Source: Daphnia pulex (Eukaryota; Arthropoda; Branchiopoda; Diplostraca; Daphniidae). From it: a stretch of 64,000 nucleotides of DNA. A program made the position numbers and the translations under genes. Position 1 is the first letter of the stretch. Each line of letters starts with the position of its first letter. Below are positions 18,463 to 41,329 of the stretch, piece by piece. The notes below the pieces were generated by a model. The model was given only the letters and a program-made list of their open reading frames with translations, was not told the DNA's origin and ran no database searches. Location: assembly GCF_021134715.1 (NCBI RefSeq), contig NC_060024.1, forward strand, positions 8,866,001 through 8,930,000, written 5' to 3'.

Positions 18463-18779
18463 TCTGGTAGCCAATTCGTCTCCCAATTCTGGTAGCCAAT
18501 TCGTCTCCCAATTCTGGTAGCCAATGATTCGTCTCCCAATTCTGGTAGCCAATTCGTCTCCCAATGAAGATTGATGATTTCCATCATTGGCTAGGCTAAT
18601 TCATAAAGAAGACAAGTTAAATGTAAAAAAAAAAATTAAATGTAATAGTTCAGTATGGCTACTGGAATTGGCTACCAATTCTGGTAGCCAATTCGTCTCC
18701 CAATTCTGGTAGCCAATTCGTCTCCCAATTCTGGTAGCCAATTCGTCTCCCAATTCTGGTAGCCAATTCGTCTCCCAAT
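18463..18779. repeat. 25-bp satellite in two four-unit blocks
   Basis: The unit starts TCTGGTAGCCAATTCGTCTC and ends CCAAT. It occurs about four times at 18463-18565, with a 3-bp insertion in one unit, and exactly four times at 18680-18779. TGGCTACCA and TGGTAGCCA next to the blocks form a 9-bp-stem inverted repeat around ATTC. The duplicated unit at 30.5 kb carries only one unit (30691-30715), so this array has expanded here. Unit identity and the absence of distinct spacers exclude a CRISPR array. Confidence 0.85.
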
Positions 18780-19124
18780 GAAGATTGGGATTACTATCAT
18801 TGGCTGGGTTAATTCATAAAGAAAAATTAAATGTTAAAAAAAAAATTAAATATTTAACATATGAATAGAATGAGAATTGTAACCACTTGTATTTAAACCA
18901 AAACCCAAAACCAAGAACACAAATTTTTGGGAAAAAAGCAAACAATTTTTCATGACAAATGTTGACAGCAGCAGGATGCCACAACATTTAAAAAGAGTAG
19001 AAAAATGGGTTTTTTGGGACAACTCGTGGACAACTCAAATGAACGTGTTAATTGACGATACAAAAGGGAAGGGGGGGATACGAAATTTCACATATCAACA
19101 GGTTGGAGTTGGGCCAATAATATG

Positions 19125-19731
19125 CTATTGGCGGGTGCTTTCAGGCTTACAAGTGGCACCAGGTGGGTCGACTTCTTCTTCGGGACGCCAAGCTAGAACT
19201 CTTAGGGCCACGGAATTCAGTAGAACCGGAAGAGGATATCCTGATAAAAATAAAAACAGTTAACACAAAGTAAAATTACAAGTTAAAAACACAAGGCAAA
19301 AAAAAAACTTACGTTTAAAGCAGCGAGAACAGCGTCTCTTGAGTAGAATGTTATGGTTACTGAGCGGCTCAATCCTTGGTTCGAATTTTCTCCAACCTCC
19401 ATCACTTTCCCTTATTGCGAAAAAGTTTCCTAAGAAAAATAAAATTAATATAAGCAATTATCTATAAAAAAAAGAAAACTACCTTGATCGCCTCGAGGGG
19501 CACACTCAACCCGATTCTTTTAACAAACAGACGTAGGGCAGGATCCCGTTTAACAACTTCCTTCAGTTCTTTCAATTCGTCATCAACTTGATTTTTTTGA
19601 AAATTCTTGAGTCGAAGATGCTTCTCAAATGCAGCCGTGACATGACCAGCAGCTTTCTTTAAGACTTCCTGATCCTCAATGGGCAAGCTACTACGGGGAT
19701 CAAACTTCAGTTTCTTTGGAGACGGTTCCAT
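19125..19731 (-). pseudogene. RRM-like small gene, copy 1 (disabled)
   Basis: Exon 1 (19731 to about 19484) starts MEPSPKKLKFDPRSS and includes VDDELKELKEVVKRD and LRLFVKRIGLSV. Exon 2 (about 19430-19316) carries SRSVTITFYSRDAVLAAL, but a TAA replaces the codon that is Val in copy 2 (after ETFSQ). Exon 3 (about 19236-19125) has two extra bases near its start relative to copy 2, which brings in an early TGA. The copy at 31086-31679 has none of these lesions. Splice sites are conserved. The unit from the satellite at 18.43 kb to 19.73 kb is repeated at 30.54-31.68 kb. Confidence 0.7.
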
Positions 19732-19943
19732 CGTGTGTTGTTCAAGTGCGTCAACTCGAGAGACTGAGGCTGGTAGGATGGGGCACTGGATTTATACGCC
19801 GCAGCGTCCTAGGTTTAGGGAAGCTACTCCTCTCTGAGAGGGCCAGTATTGGCTACTGGAATTGGCTACTAGTTGAATATCGTCGCCAAGATTTTTATCA
19901 AACTTAAAAATTATCATAGACGAGATAGTGCGCGACCAGCCTG

Positions 19944-21063
19944 TGAAGGTAAGCGAAAATTGACGAAAGCCAGGAACAGCAGACGATCCACGAACTTGAA
20001 TTTTCTTTAAGGAACACAGTTGCCAATACAATCAAAACATGATTAGCGAATTCCCATGGGCCATGGGTGAATTACGAAACACGAAAACCTGGTGGATATT
20101 TGAATTATCAGATTGAAATATTTTATCCCGCATAACTACTGACCAACAAATACAAAATTCCGCAAACCGGCAAACTTGATCAGCGTCCTACTGACAACCG
20201 CCACTAGACCCAAACATTACTCGTTGTCAATCAAAAATGACAACCCAATCATAGTGAATCGACGGGAGTTACTCTTAGTAGAAGTCGTGTTTCCTAGAAC
20301 TAGACTCGTCTAATTACAATTTAACAGGATCCACAGGCACATTGAAATGTAGAAATATTCCGTAAGACTGAATTTTTAAGCTTTAAATGATATATGGTCT
20401 CAACTTCTATAACGAGGACATCCAATAAACAAAAATTAACTGCATTGAACGACCCATTACACACCAGTTTACTAAACTCAAAACTAGCGGGCGTGTAATA
20501 ATTAAGTTCCTATTTCAAATAAAGACACTCCTCGTCCTCGATAGCATGTCGATAGTGTTGACACTTGACAATAGGTTTATATTAAAAAGGAATTCCTCTC
20601 TTAACAAATTTTTGGCAGTAGCAAAATAGAATTTGAGTATACTTTAACACTGTGATCTGATATAATAATAAAGTGTACACCTACAAGTGATTTTAATACG
20701 TTTTAATAATGTGTTTAGCAAGTTTTGCATCCTTGATTTGTTACTAGTAAAGGCCTATGATACCAGCCTTTTATTATGGCGAAAACGCCCATATGTTTCA
20801 AAGAAACGATCAATAAGATCATTACATGATTTGTTTTTTTCAAAGAAAATAGTTTTTGAAAAAGGCATTTCACGTCTATTTTGCTTGGAGGAATCGGAAG
20901 CAATAAGCCAGATATTTGGGCTAGAGGTTTCATTTTCATTGTCTTTAGTTGATGCCGACCACCTTATTATAACGCAGATGTCACCATATCAACTTATTTC
21001 CTAATACAACACAGGATACCTTTTTCTTACAAGTGAAGATGTTTAAAAAAAGGGCGCAATTAG
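19944..21063 (-). repeat. Segmental repeat R, copy 3
   Basis: This is the reverse complement of copy 1 and in the same orientation as copy 2. Its outer end GGGCGCAATTAG (21052-21063) abuts the 6.75-kb transposon. The sequence that follows GGGCGCAATTAG in the uninterrupted copy (AGATCT..., seen in reverse at 10197-10216) resumes at 27811. R copy 3 is therefore one continuous paralogous segment with 27811-28808, split by the transposon. Confidence 0.85.
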
Positions 21064-24000
21064 TATGGGGTATGGGGTGCCGTTTTTCCCTTTTTACAAC
21101 ATATCTATCGTTTAATTTATTTCAACTCCGTGTCATCATTAAACATATAAATTTGCATTGATATATTATTAAACCTACCAATTCATACTTTGATATCAAG
21201 AAATCAACCATACTATTTGTATTAATTGATTAAACATTAATAAATTGATTAAATACATTTCAAGCATGAATCAAACATTAATAAAGCAATAAAATTCATA
21301 TCAAACATGAATCAAATCAATTTAACAAAATAACCGAGGGAAAGAATCATTAACGTGAAAATGGGAAACATATATTATTTATGTGGAAAAAGGAATAATA
21401 TTAAATAATTCTACCGATTCCATAAAATTTATAATTCAACTTCGAATTCAAGTTGTTAAAAAAGACAGCCACCTAGCGGTTTATAAATGCTTCATTCGCC
21501 CACCCCCTTTATAGCCAGAACGGGAGCGGAGAGCGAGCGGTGCGATAGCGCCATCATCTTGGAATAGGTCTAAGCAATTCATTTTATCGTATTATTTACG
21601 AAACGTGCAAGCGCTAAAATATATTTAAAGCTACTTAACACGCATCGCATCAAATTTTATTAACAGGCGTAACAATGGAAGCGATTGCGGTGACTGGTCG
21701 GAAGAGCTTCCCCGTCCGTTATTTAAACGCTAAGCGTCGCCCATTTGCTTTTTTAGGCCACTCACTGCGCGAAAAATAATTAAGTCAAATATTTCGCGCT
21801 ATAGATCTAGCGCTATGTAAGCGCGCATGTCGCTTATCATTTACTTTAAAATTCACACGATGCGCTAAATTTAGTACAATTCATTTTATCATATAATTTA
21901 TAAAACACGCATTGTAAATATTTAGTGCTAGGTCTCTCTACATGTTTGCTACATGCGAAGTTTCATGTCACCTTTTTGCGGCTAATACAGTATCATGCCG
22001 TGTATACACAGCTCAATAGAAGCTTGTCCGCCTTTTTCCTTTCGTCCGATATTTACCCGCCCATATAGGCCTATATACACTGATTTTCCCGATATGTTAG
22101 CGCAATTAATTTCAGCCTAAAATTTGCAAGAATAAGTGTTCCCCTTTAGTTAAATTTAGTGCGATGCAAATGCGCTAAATATTTTCTCTCCAGCAACACG
22201 GCCAACTGGAACTTGTCCCGCAGCGTCAGCTCAGTGGGCGAGAGACACAGCGACACTTTCTCTATGCCAAAACATGGACCGTAACGTTCGGCACGGATTT
22301 CAACAGAACGGAAAGGATAAGGGCTTATAGTCAAGAAGTAGGACACCGATTTGACGCTCGTCGAGTCGACGATAAACGAACAGAAGCAGCAAAATAATAA
22401 CAAAATTTACGTACGGTAAATGTATATATATGTATAAACGACCGAAATTTGCCCCCTTTTTTATAAACAACCATTCAATTATTACGATGGTTTTGAATGA
22501 GCTTGTGTTTTTTTTCTCCGCTTTTAGACGGTTACTTTTTTTCGCAAGGAAGACGGATTGGTGCTTCAAAAATGGACATCTAGTTCGAGCCTACGATGTC
22601 ACTACCTTGATGTCAATGCTTGCTGCTTATATGGAAATTTTTTTAAAGAAACACACAAACGAACGAACGAAACAATACAAAAAATCCGTAAAAAATGCAG
22701 TGCTCTGTGGTGCTGTCAACGAATTAGACGAAAAACATAAATTGCATGGGTAAATACCGGGTAAATAAAATCACCAAGCAAAAAATTTCGATCCCTTCCA
22801 CCTTTCATCCAATTATCGAGAAACTGAAACGGCCATTCGTTGGTGCTGGAGACTTTTGTCGACAACCCTCATGCTGAATTTCATCGTGTCATATTCTATA
22901 GTCCCGTTCTAGTCCCAAAATTGCTAGATAAGTGGCTGGCTAATTAAAATCTTATCAGCCGGGCAAGGCATCGGGAATTTCCTTGTGAGGGTTTATTAGT
23001 TGGTATTCATATTGATATTACGTAATTACACTGGCTATACCTTACTGAAGACCGGTTTGGATGTCGACAGCTTTTTTCAAATATAGTTGTAGCGCCTAGA
23101 CAGACGGTGATGGTACGAGAAAGGCGAGCCGTGCCAAATTTGGCGATCATATTTCATTTTCCGACAAACTGAGAGAGATTTCAGGCTTATAGTCACTGCA
23201 TTATTGTACGCTATTTTTTAATTAATTACTTGAATATTCGATTCTTATGAGATTTAGTGTATAAATACTTCTTATAATAAACATTGTCCATTTGATTTAA
23301 TGGTTTTATAGTTACTCGTACTATTTATTTCATTTATTTTTCCTTTTATATAATTTCAAAATATATTTTTGTTTGATTCAAAATTTAAATGTCATTCGTT
23401 CTTTCATGGAACATAACCCACAGCATTGTAGTTTAATAAAAACAAATAATTTTATTCGCAAATTTATTCAATTAGGGGAGACTGGAGTAAAACGGGACGG
23501 TTTTCGTTTGCCCCCTATATCTCCCCAACTAATCATTTAATTTATTTAAAATTTTTTTTTTATGTATTCCCTATTGTAATGTACCCCCCATATTTTTTTT
23601 TATAATTTTATAATAAACCATTTCCCCATAAAAGACCTTTAAAGTTTACTCAGATTTATGGGAGGAGCCAATTTTTTGGGGTAAGTGAGGACACTGGGGT
23701 GGGTGGTAAGGGACGTCCTCCGTTTTCGCCTTAAAATTCATTAATAAAATTTAAAAAAATTTAAAAAGTGTTCCACTGCATAGACTCTTTGAGTTTATAA
23801 ATGTTTCAATTCAATTATTGTGTTAATGAACCTTTTTTCTTATATATACAAAAACCCTTATGGAACAGTAGGACATCCTGCGTTGCTAGGTCAGGAAATC
23901 GAGCCTCTTAAAAATGCTGTACGCTGATTGGTCCGTAACTGTCCCATTTTAGGCAAAAACAGCTGTCCCGATTTCCCGATTACGACTCTTTTTTTAAAAA

Positions 24001-24117
24001 GTTCATACTGTCTAAATGAATTGATCTAAAATTCTAATTTTTTTTTAACGATCAAGAAATGAATCAGCTTCATTTCCATATTAAATTTACATGCCATTAG
24101 CGTTTATTTCTTTCTAT

Positions 24118-24147
24118 AAAAACGGCACCCCATGGGGTGCCGTTTTT
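24118..24147. repeat. 30-bp perfect palindrome of two abutting transposon termini
   Basis: The half-site AAAAACGGCACCCCA is followed directly by its exact reverse complement, centred on CCATGG. Each half equals the terminal motif at the outer ends of the 6.75-kb element. The spacer thus contains two termini placed back to back, as expected if the structure arose by joining two inverted elements or by nested insertion. Confidence 0.85.
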
Positions 24148-25505
24148 CCCTTCTATCAGCATACAAAGGAATAGAAAAATATTTAAACAAAAATCAATCA
24201 TGGATCAAATGGATCAAACATGAATCAAACGAAATCAAACACAGATTAAACAAAAATCAATGTTTTTAACAGCGATCAAACCACATCTAACAGAGATCAA
24301 ACACAATTAATCGATTAACAATTAATGAAATAGGGATGACGTCAATGGTAAGGTTATACTAAATAGCAGTTGCTGATATAAATTTGTAAAAACATAAGAA
24401 ATCATTTCAAAAAGAGGAAATTGATCAGAAATGCTGGAATCAAACGGGAAATCCAAGAAAAATAATTGAATAAAGATGCGAATAAAATTATTTGTTTTTA
24501 TTAAACTACAATGCTGTGTGTTATGTTCAAAGAAAAAACGAATGACATTTAAATTTTAAATCAAACAAAAATATATTTTGCAATTATCAAAGAAAAAATA
24601 AATGAAATAAATAGTACGTAACTATAAAACCATTAAATCAAATGGGCAATGTTTATTATAAGAAATATTTGTACACTAAATCTCATAAGAATCGAATATT
24701 CAACTAATCAATTAATAAATAGCGTACAATAATGCAGTGACCTATAAGCCTGAAATCTCTCTCAGTTTGTCGGAAAATGAAATATGATCGCCAAATTTGT
24801 CACGGCTCGCCTTTCTCGTACCATCACCGTCTGTCTAGGCGCTACAACTATATTTGAAAAAAGCTGTCGACATCCAAACCGGTCTTCAGTAAGGTAGCCA
24901 GTGTAATTACGTAATATCAATATGAATACCAACCTCACAAGGAAATTCCCGATGCCTTGCCCGACTGATAAGATTTTAATTAGCCAGCCACTTAGGCTAT
25001 CTAGCAATTTTGGGACTAGAACGGGACTATAGAATATGACACGATGAAATTCAGCATGAGGGTTGTCGACAAAAGTCTCCAGCACCAACGAATGACCGTT
25101 TCAGCTTCTCGATAATTGGATGAAAGGTGGAGGGGATCGAAATTTTTTGCTTGGTGATTTTATTTACCCGGTATTTACCCATGCAATTTATGTTTTTCGT
25201 CTAATTCGTTGACAGCACCACAGAGCACTGTATTTTTTACGGATTTTTTTTATTGTTTCGTTCGTTCGTTTGTGTTTCTTTCAGTTTCTTTAAAAAAAAT
25301 TCCATATAAGCAGCAAGCATTGACATCAAGGCAGGGACATCGTAGGCTCGAACTAGATGTCCATTTTTGAAGCACCAATCCGTCTTCCTCTTGCGAAAAA
25401 AGTAACCGTCTAAAAGTGGAGAGAAAAAAAAACACAAGCTGATTCAAAACCATCGAATGGTTGTTTATATGAACATAAAAAAGGGGGCAAATTTCGGTCG
25501 TTTAT

Positions 25506-26379
25506 CGGGGGTTGGCAACTCCCCAGAATCCTCGTACACCCTAGCCAGAATCTTGTCAGAATCTTAAGAATCTTTCCAGAATCTTAAGAATCTCATAGAA
25601 TCTTCAGAATCTCGTAGAATCTTCAGAATCTCACAGAATCCCGTAGAATCCCATAGAATCTCGTAGAATCTCCAGAATCTCACTAAATTTACCCCCTTTT
25701 TTAACTTTAAACTACCCCAAAACCGTCTAAAATTCCAGATATTTTGTGAATTTGGTCTTTGAAAAGCTCCAATTGTAAAAAATGCACTAGAAATACTGCA
25801 AAATGTAAAAATATGGGTTGCGCTAAATCTTCTTTAATTTTCCCTCCTTTTTCCCACCGCTGGGTGGCGTACACATTTTTTCATCTGCTCATGAATGGAG
25901 GATGGGGTGGGAAAAATTTATGGTTAAAAAAACTTTATTGATAATATGCCATTAATTCCCAGCAATTAAAGTTAATTTTCCCCGTATATTTTATTTCAAA
26001 ATTAATAATCTGGACTTTTAATTCAAACCTATCAAATTTCTAACTATCAGATTACTTCATCTTACTTGAAACTACAAAACCTATTTAGCACCTTTTCCTA
26101 TCATTAATTATCTTAAAGATAATACGATCTACATGTCTATAAGCTGTATAGAGCATGCCAAAACGGAGCTACGCCCACTACGTAACATAGTGCATACTTC
26201 TGTACAGAAACTGGGCAAAGGACTAGTGGCGCCCCTAGCGGAATTTTGGGGAAAACTTGATTCAGAATCTCGCAGAAATCTCGTAGAATCTCTCAGAATC
26301 TCTCAGAATCTCTAGAATCTCTCGGAATCTCTGAGATTCTGAATCCTCGTACACCCAAATTTTGAGTTGCCAACCCCCG
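25506..26379. mobile_element. hAT-like non-autonomous transposon (MITE), 874 bp
   Basis: Perfect 16-bp terminal inverted repeats CGGGGGTTGGCAACTC (25506-25521) and GAGTTGCCAACCCCCG (26364-26379) are flanked by an 8-bp duplication TCGTTTAT (25498-25505, 26380-26387). The uninterrupted sequence is present, inverted, in the other arm at about 22434-22450, with a single copy of the 8-mer. Inside the ends, GAATCCTCGTACACCC occurs in direct orientation at both sides (25526-25541, 26341-26356). Short arrays of AGAATCT-type repeats follow (about 25545-25685, 26262-26335). An 8-bp duplication is typical of hAT elements. No transposase is encoded, so it depends on an autonomous relative. Confidence 0.85.
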
Positions 26380-27810
26380 TCGTTTATACATATATATACA
26401 TTTCCCGTACGTAAATTTTTTTATTATTTTGCTGCTTCTGTTCGTTTATCGTCGACTCGACGAGCGTCAAATCGGTGTCCTACTTCTTGACTAAGCCCTT
26501 ATCCTTTCCGTTCTGTTGAAATTCGTGCCGAACGTTACGGTCCATGTTTTGGCAGTAAATGCATATAGAGAAAGTGTCGCTGTGTCTCTCGCCCACTGAG
26601 GTGACGCTGCCGGACAAGTTCCAGTTGGCCGTGTTGCTGGAGAGAAAATATTTAGCGCATTTGCATCGCACTAAATTTAACTAAAGGGGAACACTTCTTG
26701 CAAAGTTTAGGCTGAAATTAATTGCGCTAACATATCGGGAAAATCAGTGTATATAGGCCTATATGGGCGGATAAATATCGGACGAAAGGAAAAAGGCGGA
26801 CAAGCTTCTATTGAGCTGTGTATACACGGCATGATACTGTATTAGCCGCAAAAAGGTGACATGAAGCTTCGCATGTAGCAAGCATGTAGAGAGACCTAGC
26901 GCTAAATATTTACAATGCGTGTTTTATGAATTATATGATAAAATGAATTGCACTAAATTTAGCGCATCGTGTGAATTTTAAAGTAAATTATAAGCGACAT
27001 GCGCGCTTACATAGCGCTAGATCTATAGCGCGAAATATTTGACTTAATTATTTTTCGCGCAGTGAGCGGCCTAAAAAAGCAAATGGGCGACGCTTAGCAC
27101 TAAAATCGCGAACGGACGCGCGGTAAGCGCTAAAATAACGGACGGGCAAGCGCTACTCTTCCGACCAGTCACCGCAATCGCTTCCATTGTTACGCCGGTT
27201 AATAAAATTTGATGCGATGCGTGTTAAGTAGCTTTAAATATATTTTAGCGCTTGCACGTTTCGTAAATAATACGATAAAATGAATTGCTTAGATCTATTC
27301 CAAGATGATGGCGCTATCGCACCGCTCGCTCTCCGCTCCCGTTCCCTGGCTATAAAGGGGGTGGGCGAATGAAGCATTTATAAACCGCTAGGTGGCTGTC
27401 TTTTTTAACAACTTGAATTCGAAGTTAAATTATAAATTTTATGGAATCGGTAGAATTATTTAATATTATTCCTTTTTCCACATAAATAGTAAATGTTTCC
27501 CATTTTCACGTTAATGATTCTTTCCCTCGGTTATTTTGTTAAATTGATTTGATTCATGTTTGATATGAATTATATTGCTGTATTAATGTTTGATTCAGTT
27601 TTGAAATGTATTTAATCAATTTATTAATGTTTAATCAATTAATACAAATAGTATGGTTGATTTCTTGATATCAAAGTATGAATTGGTAGGTTTAATAATA
27701 TATCAATGCAAATTTATATGTTTAATGATGACACGGAGTTGAAATAAATTAAACGATAGATATGTTGTAAAAAGGGAAAAACGGCACCCCATATACAACG
27801 GCACCCCATA

Positions 27811-27985
27811 AATTAGAGATCTAGAAACTAAATGGAATTGAGGTTACGACCATTTTTAACCCCGTTTCAATCCTCTAGCTCGCTATTTATAAAATGACTG
27901 AGGTACAGCCACAAATAAAAGAAGTACAGTAAGCTATAGTCGAACGTCGTTTACAGGACTTTCACCGCGTGACAAAAATAAACGC
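27811..27985 (+). repeat. Inverted copy of the CUB-gene promoter (10035-10210)
   Basis: Read forward, this matches the reverse complement of 10035-10210 nearly base for base, including AAACTAAATGGAATTGAGG, the TATTTATAAAATGACTGAGG block and TCGAACGTCGTTT. The downstream CUB gene is missing. After about 27985 the sequence no longer matches, and from about 28060 it matches the region 3' of LRR gene A, so a deletion of roughly 5.8 kb removed the gene in this copy. Confidence 0.85.
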
Positions 27986-28059
27986 GTACACATATTGACG
28001 CATATTGAATTACTTGACTATTTAACCTTTAATCGTGTACACCAGATCCCAGATAAAGA

Positions 28060-28808
28060 ATTGTATGACAAAAACAATATTATTGTTCCTTGTAGTTGAG
28101 AATTTTGTGAAAGCATGCAGTAGGCTATAAACATAAGGAAATATGTGTTGGATAGGAAAAACGACGAAACTTAAAAAATATTGGAAAGCATTGTCTTACA
28201 GCAATCACCTCATCTAATCTTCAACATTATTTTTACCTGATATTCAGTGCTTCTCATCCGCCATCCAATTTAAACGATTAAAGTTCACATTTCCAATATT
28301 TTCTACAGAAATTTCGGACAAAGGATTCGCTTCGTTCAGGAAGATGTGGCCTTTCTGGCTCACATTACAACAACCGTGCAACCTTAACTTGGTCAAATAC
28401 TTGAAACTTTTTCTAGAGCAAGCTTTCTCAATGATTTGGTCATCAAGAGTGAAACACTTTACTACGAAAATCACTGTCAGAGCAGGGGAAGACAAAAGCA
28501 ATAGGAATAATTTGCGTGAAATAGCGAAAATAGCGATTAGGCCTATTGTTGAAAAAAATGGTTTTCAGATAAATGACTTCCAACATACTTAACGAAATAA
28601 CTTCCTTTGGGTATTGGGGAACAAAGAGAAGAATGGAAGCAATCCACCACCGGTCCGCGAGTTTCCGGATCGGTACTTTCTAAAACAAGTAGCAAACGGC
28701 GAATATTCAGGCAGCACTCGATGATGAGATAGACTTCTTCACTTGTTAGGCCTACTTCGATTGATAAATATTACTTTTCAAGTGTAGGGCAACGAACTTG
28801 TAGAACTT
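28060..28808 (-). pseudogene. Truncated LRR gene A paralog (3' half only)
   Basis: On the minus strand 28808-28244 aligns with about 3450-3985 of gene A. The clearest stretches are CFTLDDQIIEKACSRKSFKY and YLTKLRLHGCCNVSQKG, against CFTLDDQIIEEACARNSFKY and YLTKLNFYGCSNVSQKG. Several small indels break the frame, and the Trp codon after EKH is a TGA. The 3' flank (28060-28240) also matches the sequence downstream of gene A (TTAAGTTTCGT, TTTCACAAAAT). The 5' half is missing from 28808 outward, where bacterial-looking sequence begins. This is the outer end of the right-hand arm of the inverted duplication. Confidence 0.85.
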
Positions 28809-28870
28809 TAGTTAGTGAACAGAAAATTTTTATTTATTTATTTATTTATTATTTATTTTTATATTTCCAT

Positions 28871-29005
28871 CACTTCGTTCCCAGAATCCTTTACTTTAGC
28901 TGGGGTTTTGCTGGATCTATTATAGAAAGATTGCAAATGCCTTTCTTTTTGATGCCATTATCTATTATCTCCGTATTTTTAATGATCTTTCGTTCGTTCC
29001 CATAA
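28871..29005 (+). pseudogene. Possible C-terminus of a bacterial membrane transporter
   Basis: A frame ending at TAA 29003-29005 reads YFSWGFAGSIIERLQMPFF followed by a hydrophobic stretch (LMPLSIISVFLMIF) and RSFP. The pattern of a charged loop between two hydrophobic helices, then a short tail, resembles the last helices of an MFS permease. It is too short to be sure. It matters because it lies just before clear bacterial fragments. Confidence 0.25.
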
Positions 29006-29191
29006 AAAAGTTGGCGCTTTATCTAAGTCACATCCTGATATTGTAAGATTTCACAATGATTTTGCTCATTTACAAAGAGAACTTCCTGTATTGCAAAAGA
29101 AAAACTTACTTCTGTTTTCATTATTTTTGTGATATTGCTTATTTTTTTATTATTCCCAAATTATTGTTAATAAAAAATAATAGAGTATAGG

Positions 29192-29345
29192 ATTCATATT
29201 GTTTGTCCAGATTGTTTAGAAAAAGATTCTTTAACTATCTGTGGTCCTGGAATTGAGAGAATTGAAGAAGAAACTAGGAGTATTTTTCCTGATAGTAAAA
29301 TTGCTGTAATTAGTAAAGATCATTCTCAAAAATCTAAAGATTCAT
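29192..29345 (+). pseudogene. priA: Fragment of bacterial priA (primosomal helicase N')
   Basis: In one frame the sequence reads [20 protein letters not shown], then [20 protein letters not shown]. This matches the PriA region where the zinc-binding CPxC pair is followed by a GxGxER motif and the FP-D-A/K strand. PriA restarts replication forks in bacteria and has no animal counterpart. Only about 50 codons remain. No start, and neither the upstream helicase motifs nor the rest of the zinc cluster, is present. The frame passes directly into sequence from a different gene at about 29343. AT-rich codons and the SKDH ending suggest an intracellular alphaproteobacterium (inference). Confidence 0.7.
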
Positions 29346-29438
29346 GGGGCAAAGAAATTATCACAGATTAGTTTTGAGGAAATGCTGGAATTTGCATCTT
29401 GTGGGGCGAAAGTGTTGCATCCACGTTCCTTAGAAATT
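29343..29438 (+). pseudogene. lysC: Fragment of bacterial lysC (aspartokinase)
   Basis: The next frame reads [20 protein letters not shown] and then KVLHPRSLEI. This is the conserved aspartokinase segment between the catalytic and ACT regions (usual form: ISF-EMLELASLGAKVLHPRSVE). Aspartokinase starts lysine/threonine/DAP synthesis in bacteria and plants and is absent from animals. Only about 32 codons remain. After LEI the reading continues as QPGQRLIALLNADSYVHIG, which is not aspartokinase and which I cannot place. Host-like sequence resumes at about 29575. Confidence 0.7.
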
Positions 29439-29576
29439 CAACCTGGTCAAAGACTTATTGCGTTATTGAATGCAGACTCTTATGTTCACATTGGTGCAAG
29501 TTATGCACAATATTGCAAATCTAGAAATAGCAATCCACCGATAAGCTTGAACAAAAACAACCAAAACTAAATATAC

Positions 29577-30096
29577 CTTCTCTACCTTGATTGAAAAGCA
29601 CCTTCGAACCAAGAATATCCAGAAGAACGTTGTTGACGACGAGCTAAAGGCCCTTGAGGAGGTTGTCAAACGCGATGCATCCCTTCGTCTGTATGTGAAA
29701 AATATTGGAGTAGGTGTGCCCCTCGAGACCATTCAGGTAGTTTGCTAATTAATTTAGATAATTGCAAAAATTAATTTTTTTTTTGTGAAGGAGAAATTTT
29801 CGTTTTTCGGCAAAGTGATGGAGGTAGAGGAGAACCCCAACCCCGGATTGATCCGCTCGGTCACTATTACATTTTACTCAAAAGATTCAGTTGTTGCTGC
29901 TATACATGTAAGTTGTTTCTATTTTGCAAATGTGACTTTTTATTAATTTTTTTGTTTTTTTCATTTCTTCCAGCATCAAGAACCTATTTTGCTGAATTCC
30001 GTAGTACTCAAAGTCACCGCTTGGCGTCCCGACGAAGAAGTTGACCTACCTGGTGCTGGAGGCGCCACCTGCAAGCCTGGAAGTATCCGCCAATAG
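29577..30096 (+). pseudogene. RRM-like small gene, copy 3 (5'-truncated)
   Basis: Exon 1 is cut at about 29577 and runs to 29736 (IEKHLRTKNIQK, VVDDELKALEEVVKRD, LRLYVKNIGVGVPLETIQ). Exon 2 is 29791-29907 (FSFFGKVMEVEENPNPG, RSVTITFYSKDSVVAAI). Exon 3 is 29974-30096 (LLNSVVLKVTAWRPDEEVD, ending SIRQ). Exons 2 and 3 are 117 and 123 nt, exactly as in the intact copy 2, and there are no stops. The first 35 or so codons with the start Met are replaced by the bacterial-looking patch, and no in-frame ATG lies between the nearest upstream stop and the homologous part. It is the most diverged of the three copies and lies on the opposite strand. Confidence 0.65.
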
Positions 30097-30539
30097 CAGT
30101 TCAGTTTCGCCAGTTCAGTTTAGCCAACTTTCCAACTCGTTGATATGTATAAATGAAAATTCGTATCCCCCCTCTTCCCAATGTTTGGCCTTGTTCATGT
30201 ACTGAAATGTAAATTTCGTCCCCTTTCTGAGAATGCAACGTTGCTGAAATAGAATTTTTTTCCTTGAAGTTTGACTTTTTTTTCCTTTTTCGGTTGAGTA
30301 CATGCGTGAACGGTAGGGCTATGGCCCGGACCATGGTGGAGAGAGTTTTCTTATTACTTATTATATTATTTTCCTAATCTCCCTAAACAAAATTTAAATA
30401 GTAAATTTGATGCTTTTCCTTGGTCTCAAGACTTGAATTTATTTAAATGCTAGCAAAAAAGCTTAGGAAATGTATCTAGTGCATGTAAGACAATGGGGTA
30501 TAGCAGAGATAGTTATTATAGATTCAAGGAATTTGCTAC

Positions 30540-30780
30540 CAGTTCTAGTAGCCAATTGGCCACTGGAATTGGCTAGGGCCAGGGTTGGCTACTGGAATTG
30601 GCTACCAATTTTGGTAGCCAATTCCGGCAGCCAAATCTGGTAGTTCAGTATGGCTACCGCCAATATTGGCTACTGGAATTGGCTACCAATTCTGGTAGCC
30701 AATTCGTCTCCCAATGAAGATTGATGATTTTCATCATTGGCTAGGCTAATTGATAAAGAAGACAAGTTAAATATTAAAAA
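30540..30780. repeat. Duplicated satellite flank with one 25-bp unit
   Basis: GGCTACT/GGAATTGGCTACC and GGTAGCCAATT motifs occur here in degenerate form, with a single intact satellite unit at 30691-30715. The following AATGAAGATTGATGATTT and CATTGGCTAGGCTAATT match the flank of the arrays at 18.5-18.8 kb. Homology to the other copy continues through the RRM-like gene. Confidence 0.75.
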
Positions 30781-31085
30781 AAAATTAAATATTTAACATA
30801 TGAATAGAATAAGAATTGTAACCACTTGTATTTAAACCAAAGCCCAAAACCAGAACACAAATTTTCGGGAAAAAAGCAAACAATTCTGAATGGCAAATGT
30901 TTACAGTAGCAGGTGCCTCAACATTTAAAAAGAGTAGAAAAACGGGATTTTTGGGGTTTAATTGAAGTTAAATCAAACTCGTGGACAACTCAAATGAACG
31001 TGTCAATTGACAAAAGTTACAAAAGGGAAGGGGGGGATACGAATTTTCACATATCAACAAGTTGGATAGTTGGCCAAACTATATG

Positions 31086-31679
31086 CTATTGGCGGGTGCT
31101 TTCAGGCTTGCAAGTGGCGCCACTAGCACCAAGTGGGTCGACTTCTTCTTCGGGACGCCAAGCGGTAACTTTGAGGGCAACGGAATTCAGTAAAACTGGA
31201 AGTGGATCCTGAAAAAAAGTAAAAACAATTAATACAAAGTAAAATTGGCAAAAAAAAAACTTACATTTAAAGCAGCGAGAACAGCATCCCTTGAGTAAAA
31301 CGTTATTGTTACGGAGCGGCTCAATCCGGCGTTAGAATTCTCTCTTACCATCATCACTTTGCCGTAAACCGAAAATGTTTCCTTAAAAAAAAATTAATTT
31401 AAGCAATTATCTATATAAAATGGAAACTACCTTTATATCCTCGAGGGGCACACTCAGCCCGATTCTTTTCACGAACAGACGTAGGGAAGAATCTCGTTTA
31501 ACCACTTCCTTCAGTTCCTTTAACTCGTCATCAACTTCTTTCTTCTGGAAATTCTTGAGACGGAGATGCTTTTCAAACGCAGCCGTTAGTTGACTTACAG
31601 CTTTCTTCATGACTTCCTGATCCTCAATGGGCATACTACTACGGGGATCAAACTTCTGCTTCTCATATATTCTTGTCAT
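31086..31679 (-). CDS. Small RRM-like protein, intact copy (3 exons, 162 aa)
   Basis: Exons 31679-31431, 31381-31265 and 31208-31086 (249, 117 and 123 nt, all phase 0) encode 162 residues without stops. Residues 1-60 are charged and probably helical (VDDELKELKEVVKRD). Residues about 65-140 have the order of an RNA-recognition motif: RNP2-like LRLFVKRIGL, helix 1 ending ETFSVYGKVMMV, RNP1-like SRSVTITFYS, helix 2 RDAVLAAL, last strand SVALKVTAW. The usual aromatic RNP1 positions are only partly kept, so RNA binding is uncertain. I do not recognise the family. The N-terminal eight residues differ from copy 1 (MTRIYEKQ versus MEPSPKKL), which places a duplication breakpoint near 31660. Promoter evidence is lacking, so expression is unknown. 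Confidence 0.65.
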
Positions 31680-33041
31680 ATCAAGCAGGTATAATCAGAA
31701 ATATACTCACAACAGCATAAAGCAGAAATGTCTGAACATGGCTAGTTATGCATACTGTCGAGCACACTTCGATAGAGAAACCCCAGTTACCCAGATTACT
31801 TCAAAGCTGTTAAACTTTCACTACATCATTATTCATTACTGCATAGTAAGTATGTTCATTTAAACAAAAGCAGGCATTGTGATGTCAAAATTACCTTAAG
31901 TGAAACGAATCATAATCAAAACGTATTGCAATTGTCAAGCAGGCACAGCTTGTTGGGAATAGAATCGATGCCCAACAGCCGACGACTAGGATCGGCCGAC
32001 AAACTCGATTACCGCGACATTTAAATGCTTACTGTATTCGGGGCCCCCGATAGGTGGCCCCCTGTGCCGCCGTTTACCCCCCATTTGGCCATTGTTCCTT
32101 TCCTCCTATTTTAAACCATTCGCATTTATGCTGTAAATTATTTAGTGTACAATAAACCAGCGCAGAGGAAGGAACCAATTCTAGAAGTGTCGTTATTATC
32201 GCATTTAACTTGAGATTGTAATTGGGTCGACACCCCACAAGCATTGCATTCTTAACACAGCTAACTGTAGGCCCGTAGCTGCCATCTTGAATGTTTAAAT
32301 GAGGAATGTGCAAGGTTGCATGATAGGGAAAATGTTGTAAAAAAAATAGAAGAGAAATTGTGTTCAAAATAAATCCAAGTGGCTTTGTTTTGTATGTGTA
32401 TTGAACCTTCTTTACAAAAAGCAAAAGTCATAAGAAAACCTTGAGAGACAGATAGAGATTCGAAATGCCACACATTCATAGGAAAATCCAAAGAGGAAGA
32501 AAATGTAGATGAAGGAGAGGGGGTCCAAATTCCAACACATAACGAATACCCAAATGTCTTGAACAAAAGCAAATGAAGGCGTTTACAAAAGGGTCTGACT
32601 GCATAGGCACGTAAACTGTTATCATGAGAGGAAAAAACACACCGGGGTTCAGGAAATGACAGAAAGAAGGACAAAATTAAAGAGTTTGGGGGGTCGACCA
32701 TCGGAAAGAAATTTAATGAGAAATAAAACAAAACAACGAAAGCCTGTGTCCTCAATTCAGAAATAATTTCAAAATATCTGGTTCCAAGTAAAAAAAAAAA
32801 TAAATCAAACTTTCTAAGTTGAATCAAAATATTGAAACAGGCTCTAGACTTCTACTGGTATGGCAGTGTTTCAAAACGGCGACGAGTAAGGCTAGCTTTC
32901 ATATTTCTAATGATAATTTTATGAATCTTTTGGGAGGGGCTGGGATGTGAAAAAACTTGTGGGGTTTTCGAGAATGAAGGAGCGTGGTGTTGTTTAGTCG
33001 AGGATGGAAAATGACGCTCCGTTAAATGTGGCTTCTTCTGC
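31680..33041. other. Intergenic region and collagen 3' flank
   Basis: This lies between the duplicated RRM unit and the collagen stop codon. It should contain the 3' UTR of the minus-strand collagen gene. I see AT-rich unique sequence and no supportable gene. Confidence 0.4.

Positions 33042-41329
<8,288 letters not shown>

Follow-up and report, generated by a model that had tools for sequence, protein, structure and literature searches.

An end-to-end mosaic of short Rickettsia fragments in the genome of Daphnia pulex

Introduction

At sites of chromosome-break repair, filler DNA or templated insertions can join short, unlinked pieces of DNA in one patch. Organelle DNA is mentioned as such filler in PMC6215612, and the complex numts, nupts and numins treated there combine, at a single place in the nuclear genome, several pieces from separate parts of the donor (one mosaic organelle insertion of 3,573 bp consists of four fragments), numins having blunt or briefly overlapping junctions that this source attributes to NHEJ. 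DNA of intracellular Rickettsiales is found in host chromosomes in the form of nuwts (PMC12693587, PMC4299567, PMC3998919), and duplication after insertion has been described for a nuwt of D. ananassae (PMC4299567). Arthropod HGT-chimera genes place bacterial next to host sequence in single reading frames, many of them expressed; Rickettsiales are among the donors, and the youngest cases reported come from Daphnia pulex and D. pulicaria (PMC13389597). PMC7992394 finds an over-representation of Torix Rickettsia among aquatic insects; Daphnia is absent from the text of that paper and of PMC9098888, and in the accessible portions of the open-access literature we found no description of a mosaic of Torix Rickettsia shards in a host chromosome.

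The window analyzed here is a stretch of 64,000 nucleotides of Daphnia pulex (C8:8866001-8930000 of a host genome of 133.19 Mb in 13 contigs). An earlier note, made from its letters, had described bacterial gene fragments joined end to end from position 28809 on. We confirm that this mosaic is real and larger than first described; it begins at 28936, the first 127 bases of the stretch (28809-28935) having no significant Rickettsia match.

Results

Eleven Rickettsia fragments lie end to end between host blocks

We searched window positions 28800-29600 against six Rickettsia genomes, among them RiCimp, Lappe4 and moomin of the Torix group, and re-aligned them to stretches of about 2 kb of RiCimp, the Rickettsia endosymbiont of the midge Culicoides impunctatus (Torix limoniae group, proposed name 'Ca. 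Tisiphia'; chromosome of 1,469,631 bp; PMC9098888), donor gene names being assigned by NCBIfam and Pfam. Positions 28936-29588 (~650 bases) were found to be 11 RiCimp fragments joined end to end. The patch and its surroundings read as follows; sense and antisense refer to the donor gene on the plus strand of the window, and percentages are identities.

28050-28805, plus strand: left host block, 75.6% paralogue of window 4172-3453; homology stops at the patch
28864-28914, minus strand: host exon piece of 51 bp, C3:7740586-7740636, 96%
28936-28990, plus strand: Rickettsia comEC-like piece of 55 bp, RiCimp 506209-506155, 94.5%, sense
28996-29111, plus strand: Rickettsia amidase (AmpD-like), RiCimp 163763-163878, 99.1%, sense
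29112-29157, plus strand: dispersed Rickettsia repeat, best RiCimp place 344065-344110, 97.8%
29158-29182, plus strand: 25-bp fragment, RiCimp 1389565-1389541, 100%; also 100% in three other Rickettsia genomes
29188-29341, plus strand: Rickettsia priA, 154 bp, RiCimp 1037529-1037376, 100%, sense
29341-29435, plus strand: Rickettsia lysC (aspartokinase), 95 bp, RiCimp 880382-880476, 100%, sense
29439-29475, plus strand: Rickettsia virB10 (TrbI), 37 bp, RiCimp 1018040-1018004, 100%, sense
29475-29524, plus strand: piece of an unnamed 133-aa ORF, 50 bp, RiCimp 788739-788690, 96% (98% in the second copy), sense
29529-29549, plus strand: sdhB, RiCimp 1127850-1127870, 100%, antisense; starts at 29528 in the second copy
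29545-29569, plus strand: ettA (ABC-F), RiCimp 995018-994994, 96%, sense; weak taken alone
29569-29588, plus strand: mutS, RiCimp 78625-78606, 100%, sense; weak taken alone
29591-30449, plus strand: right host block, with window paralogues 31576-31025 (75.7%) and 19628-19066 (69.7%), both up to 30179
30450-30533, plus strand: RiCimp insertion-sequence transposase, 84 bp, 98.8% to the aligned copy, sense

Together the fragments cover 637 of the 653 bases, counting sdhB from its start in the second copy. They are 20-154 bp long (median 46), and the ten that are not the repeat carry six mismatches in 599 bases when the better of the two copies is taken. The ends of the comEC, repeat and ettA fragments come from the re-alignment only; if mismatches are allowed, the comEC piece extends to 28993 at 93%, the start of sdhB shifts to 29521, and the end of the unnamed-ORF fragment moves by a few bases. 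The best matches of the 11 fragments fall at 11 different places of a Rickettsia chromosome, not of a mitochondrial or plastid genome as in numts and numins. The donor loci lie in mixed order and strand across 1.47 Mb, and the ten non-repeat positions are spread over the chromosome like a uniform draw. Among the matches listed for the six genomes, RiCimp had the highest identity for comEC, amidase, priA, lysC and virB10, tied with other Rickettsia genomes for the repeat, the 25-bp piece, sdhB and mutS, and was alone in matching the unnamed ORF and ettA.

Host DNA lies on both sides of the patch within a contig of 14.2 Mb, in paralogous blocks at 28050-28805 and from 29591. The earlier note had observed that two host duplications end at the patch, and we found the same: homology on the left runs to 28805 and that on the right begins at 29591. 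Its names for the flanks, an LRR pseudogene and an RRM gene, were not borne out, Pfam returning no family for the three single frames tried. Between the left block and the first Rickettsia base, 28806-28863 is mostly low-complexity sequence and 28915-28935 a 21-bp remainder, on either side of the exon piece. The source of that piece on C3 lies in an open frame matching Pfam PI3K_C2 at E=1.1e-4, which is below the curated cut-off; we take it to be a PI3K-type gene, probably VPS34/PIK3C3. On the right, another paralogue of the host block (C8:7806022-7806750, 80%) reaches to 30314, and 30315-30449 is placed in the block by position only. The transposase piece, about 860 bp downstream of the patch, has at least ten chromosomal copies in RiCimp at 98-99% and a donor ORF with HTH domains; with it at 30450-30533, Rickettsia DNA flanks the right host block on both sides. 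The family of this block has several inverted and direct copies in the window (18656-19715, 30586-31663, 29591-30179).

The priA and lysC fragments and the significance of the short pieces

That fragments of priA and an aspartokinase gene abut was the centre of the earlier note, and the protein evidence upholds it along with the DNA identities: the PriA frame (29174-29368) matched NCBIfam NF004072 at E=2.9e-19 and the aspartokinase frame (29310-29567), in the same kind of search, TIGR00657 at E=1.6e-10, base 29341 being common to both fragments. At E<=1, Pfam found no family in the PriA frame, and in the LysC frame it found AA_kinase, with a score under the cut-off of that family; a search of solved structures gave no match for the former and, for the latter, aspartokinases along with others that we took as chance. 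When the collection of species genomes was scanned for a pattern from the PriA frame, 17 loci were confirmed, of which 16 were Rickettsia and one Janthinobacterium (35%), the top locus being RiCimp at 100% over residues 6-56. At the DNA level the priA fragment was 100% identical to RiCimp, 98.7% to Lappe4 and RiCNE, and 91-92% to Pante1 and nzgw532. Its identity to moomin was 77.9%; nine further Rickettsia loci aligned over 129-143 bp at 75.8-79.1%, and another over 92 bp at 81.5%. The nesting of the fragment with an intracellular bacterium is judged on these percent identities. The expectation that both genes would lead to one bacterial clade held, PriA in the species genome scan and LysC among the six Rickettsia genomes pointing to a Rickettsiales endosymbiont.

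Two other frames had been noticed in the letters. One, before priA, was read as a possible transporter C-terminus; a bacterial piece is indeed present, and it is the 55-bp comEC piece. NCBIfam found no family in the frames before priA, and DNA comparison then accounted for them. The other, left unplaced, does follow lysC and can now be placed: it consists of the 37 bp of virB10 and the 50 bp of the unnamed ORF, the latter out of its donor frame, so that the 86-codon frame at 29310-29567 is open although it contains a piece out of frame.

When the whole RiCimp genome was compared with window 19501-39000, with 40 of 94 first-look candidates scored, all 41 matches listed at E<=1 fell within 28936-29588 or 30450-30533. 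The short pieces at the right end are the weakest: their E values with the 801-base query were 2.6e-5 (sdhB), 3.1e-4 (ettA) and 5.8e-4 (mutS), and with the 19.5-kb query 6.3e-4, 0.0076 and 0.014. In a control, the reversed host sequence scored up to 41.9 bits (E=0.007) against the RiCimp loci, equal to ettA (41.9 bits) and above mutS (41.0 bits), indicating that these two assignments rest partly on their abutting position. Scores of 40 bits or more occurred in none of the 63,263 other window bases in a comparison with 12 RiCimp 20-kb chunks and one locus (~16% of the genome), a count biased towards the patch because the chunks were chosen to contain donors.

Junctions and orientation of the fragments

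The ten internal junctions comprise four overlaps (1, 1, 5 and 1 nt), two flush joins and four gaps (5, 5, 3 and 3-4 nt), so that 6/10 are blunt or show microhomology. If mismatches are allowed in comEC and sdhB, one gap shortens and another becomes a 4-nt overlap. Such an anatomy would fit end joining. Eight of the nine coding fragments are sense on the plus strand of the window (one-sided P=0.02), a bias that random capture of DNA does not predict; the transposase piece is sense as well.

Fragments break off inside the coding sequences of priA, lysC and further genes. A living donor should need these two and the other interrupted genes and is therefore not expected to have this order of fragments, which probably arose as the DNA entered the host cell or afterwards.

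A second copy of the right half of the patch

Part of the patch occurs again on the same contig:

29171-30623, plus strand: duplicated stretch, copy at C8:8302728-8304180 on the minus strand, 99.2%, 12 differences in 1453 bases

The copy is inverted and 590 kb away, keeps the same order of fragments from 29171 on, and has three of its 12 differences inside the patch. It stops within the patch at 29171 and continues into other DNA, in which a direct repeat about 657 bp apart was seen by eye (1930-2000 and 2588-2660 of the extracted stretch); this is perhaps a transposable element. At 29519 and 29528 the second copy has kept the donor base, which indicates that the patch is older than the duplication. 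With Daphnia pulex mutation rates of 2.30-4.53e-9 (PMC12926508), the divergence of 0.83% between the copies would correspond to about 0.9-1.8 million generations if the copies diverged without gene conversion.

Further Rickettsia fragments in the host genome

We probed the host genome with six of the 12 RiCimp chunks of 20 kb (120 kb, 8.2% of the chromosome) and found three new fragments at 100% identity beyond the patch and its copy, while three of the six chunks gave no strong new host site.

C2:7886016-7886109: RiCimp fragment, 94 bp, 100%
C2:7886213-7886283: RiCimp fragment, 71 bp, 100%
C3:4004151-4004208: RiCimp IS transposase (Pfam DDE_3), 58 bp, 100%

The two C2 pieces, which we take to be hemE and bcp, respectively, are sense on the same strand and lie about 100 bp apart within 270 bp, their donors being 880 kb or 589 kb apart around the chromosome; judged on this arrangement, C2:7886016-7886283 is probably a second mosaic. 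Three pieces per 120 kb would amount to ~37 for the whole RiCimp chromosome, an extrapolation with broad limits (some 8 to 107 under a Poisson assumption, two of the three pieces sharing one site).

Diverged matches were seen as well. At C2:10463700-10464862, about 106 bp match at 79-90% a multi-copy RiCimp element, presumably a Rickettsia palindromic element, and adjoining this is an 829-bp match at 68% that overlaps a RiCimp MFS transporter; the site is perhaps an older, larger Rickettsia insertion. C2 and C4 hold, for example at C2:10646277-10646379 and C2:9115042-9115205, 11 matches of 45-57 bp (85-92%) to one RiCimp DDE_3 transposase, a few of which form closely spaced inverted pairs, and C8:5296349-5297024 holds two pieces (74-85%) of an ORF-less RiCimp repeat in opposite orientation. 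These diverged matches may be older insertions or shared mobile elements. Two further candidates were set aside as probably ordinary host genes: C4:8017887, whose donor looks like tRNA-Leu, and C12:2213222, whose donor looks like infB (66%).

Discussion

We propose, with a probability of about 0.7, that the patch is symbiont DNA that was shattered and captured during the repair of a chromosome break, together with part of a host exon. In a host germ-line cell, DNA of a Torix-group Rickettsia very close to RiCimp would have been broken into pieces of tens to about 150 bp, and at least 11 of them, with the 51-bp exon piece, would have been joined end to end by classical or alternative end joining at a break on C8, either inside the two duplicated host blocks or between them. 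The scattered donors, the short overlaps and the host exon all agree with the ligation of DNA fragments into a broken chromosome. Later, a stretch of 1.45 kb with the right half of the patch would have been duplicated to the site 590 kb away. The C2 cluster and the C3 fragment could reflect either a repeated process or one burst at several sites. The earlier note had read the patch in much the same way; the short, unrelated, end-to-end pieces are as it described, the break repair that it invoked is inferred from junction anatomy, and its reading is on this evidence supported.

The main rival is template switching, in which a repair or replication polymerase (MMBIR or theta-type) copied bacterial and host stretches in turn. 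It accommodates the short pieces, the presence of some 1-5-nt overlaps and the persistence of the source exon on C3, but it requires the bacterial chromosome to remain at the break while the polymerase jumps about eleven times, and at 6/10 junctions no base is shared; we consider it improbable, although with a chance worth keeping in view. The orientation of the fragments speaks for another route, in which fragments of sense mRNA from the symbiont were copied into DNA by a template-switching reverse transcriptase before insertion: besides the 8/9 coding fragments, the IS piece and both C2 pieces are sense. Yet two pieces, sdhB and that of the host exon, run antisense, inspection of the letters by eye showed no poly(A) tract, and 9/11 donors are protein ORFs, where an RNA pool would be dominated by rRNA, so that an RNA origin is unlikely and has only a slim chance.

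The very high identity to a living bacterium could also arise from an artefact, if pieces of a Rickettsia sequenced along with the host had been joined in vitro and then built into a host contig by the assembler. Against such a chimera stand the two copies at a distance of 590 kb, which show 12 differences (three in the patch itself), the further fragments on C2 and C3, and the paralogous host blocks that abut the patch, which make it very unlikely. A bacterial insert that was once contiguous, then decayed and was scrambled as the host DNA rearranged, would suit this duplication-rich region, but the donor loci are spread across 1.47 Mb with neither order nor strand preserved, and the pieces are nevertheless nearly unmutated; we give this explanation next to no weight.

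Capture of shattered symbiont DNA, the reading that we prefer, might extend beyond this site. If the host holds tens of micro-mosaics, a whole symbiont genome may have been fragmented in the germ line or in dormant eggs, and its pieces, ligated with pieces of host DNA, may have formed a pool by which breaks in several chromosomes were closed more or less simultaneously. We offer this tentatively, at clearly less than even odds, and dormant, drying eggs as the setting of the shattering are speculation. Were it true, the genome would record a lost Torix Rickettsia infection and one repair crisis. The patch in itself points to past contact of the host with Torix Rickettsia and suggests that symbiont DNA can enter the nucleus as a concatenate of sub-gene shards, as opposed to genes or long tracts; such shards are easily overlooked by gene-based screens for horizontal transfer. 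Given that the match to the donor is near-perfect, the junctions are readable and the repair mechanism can be studied directly.

Like complex numts, nupts and numins, the patch unites non-contiguous donor pieces at one nuclear site, and it shares with numins the blunt or short-overlap junctions; it differs from them in that the donor is a Rickettsiales symbiont and not an organelle, that the pieces measure only 20-154 bp, and that a host exon piece is included. Compared with filler DNA, most pieces come from the genome of a second organism. The HGT-chimera genes resemble it in setting bacterial beside host sequence, but they are single reading frames, whereas the donor frames here are mostly broken. 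Wolbachia nuclear transfers appear to be the nearest bacterial case known, alike in bringing DNA of an intracellular member of the Rickettsiales into host chromosomes; the donor here belongs to another clade, and to our knowledge nuwts are not usually concatenates of sub-gene pieces, as this patch is.
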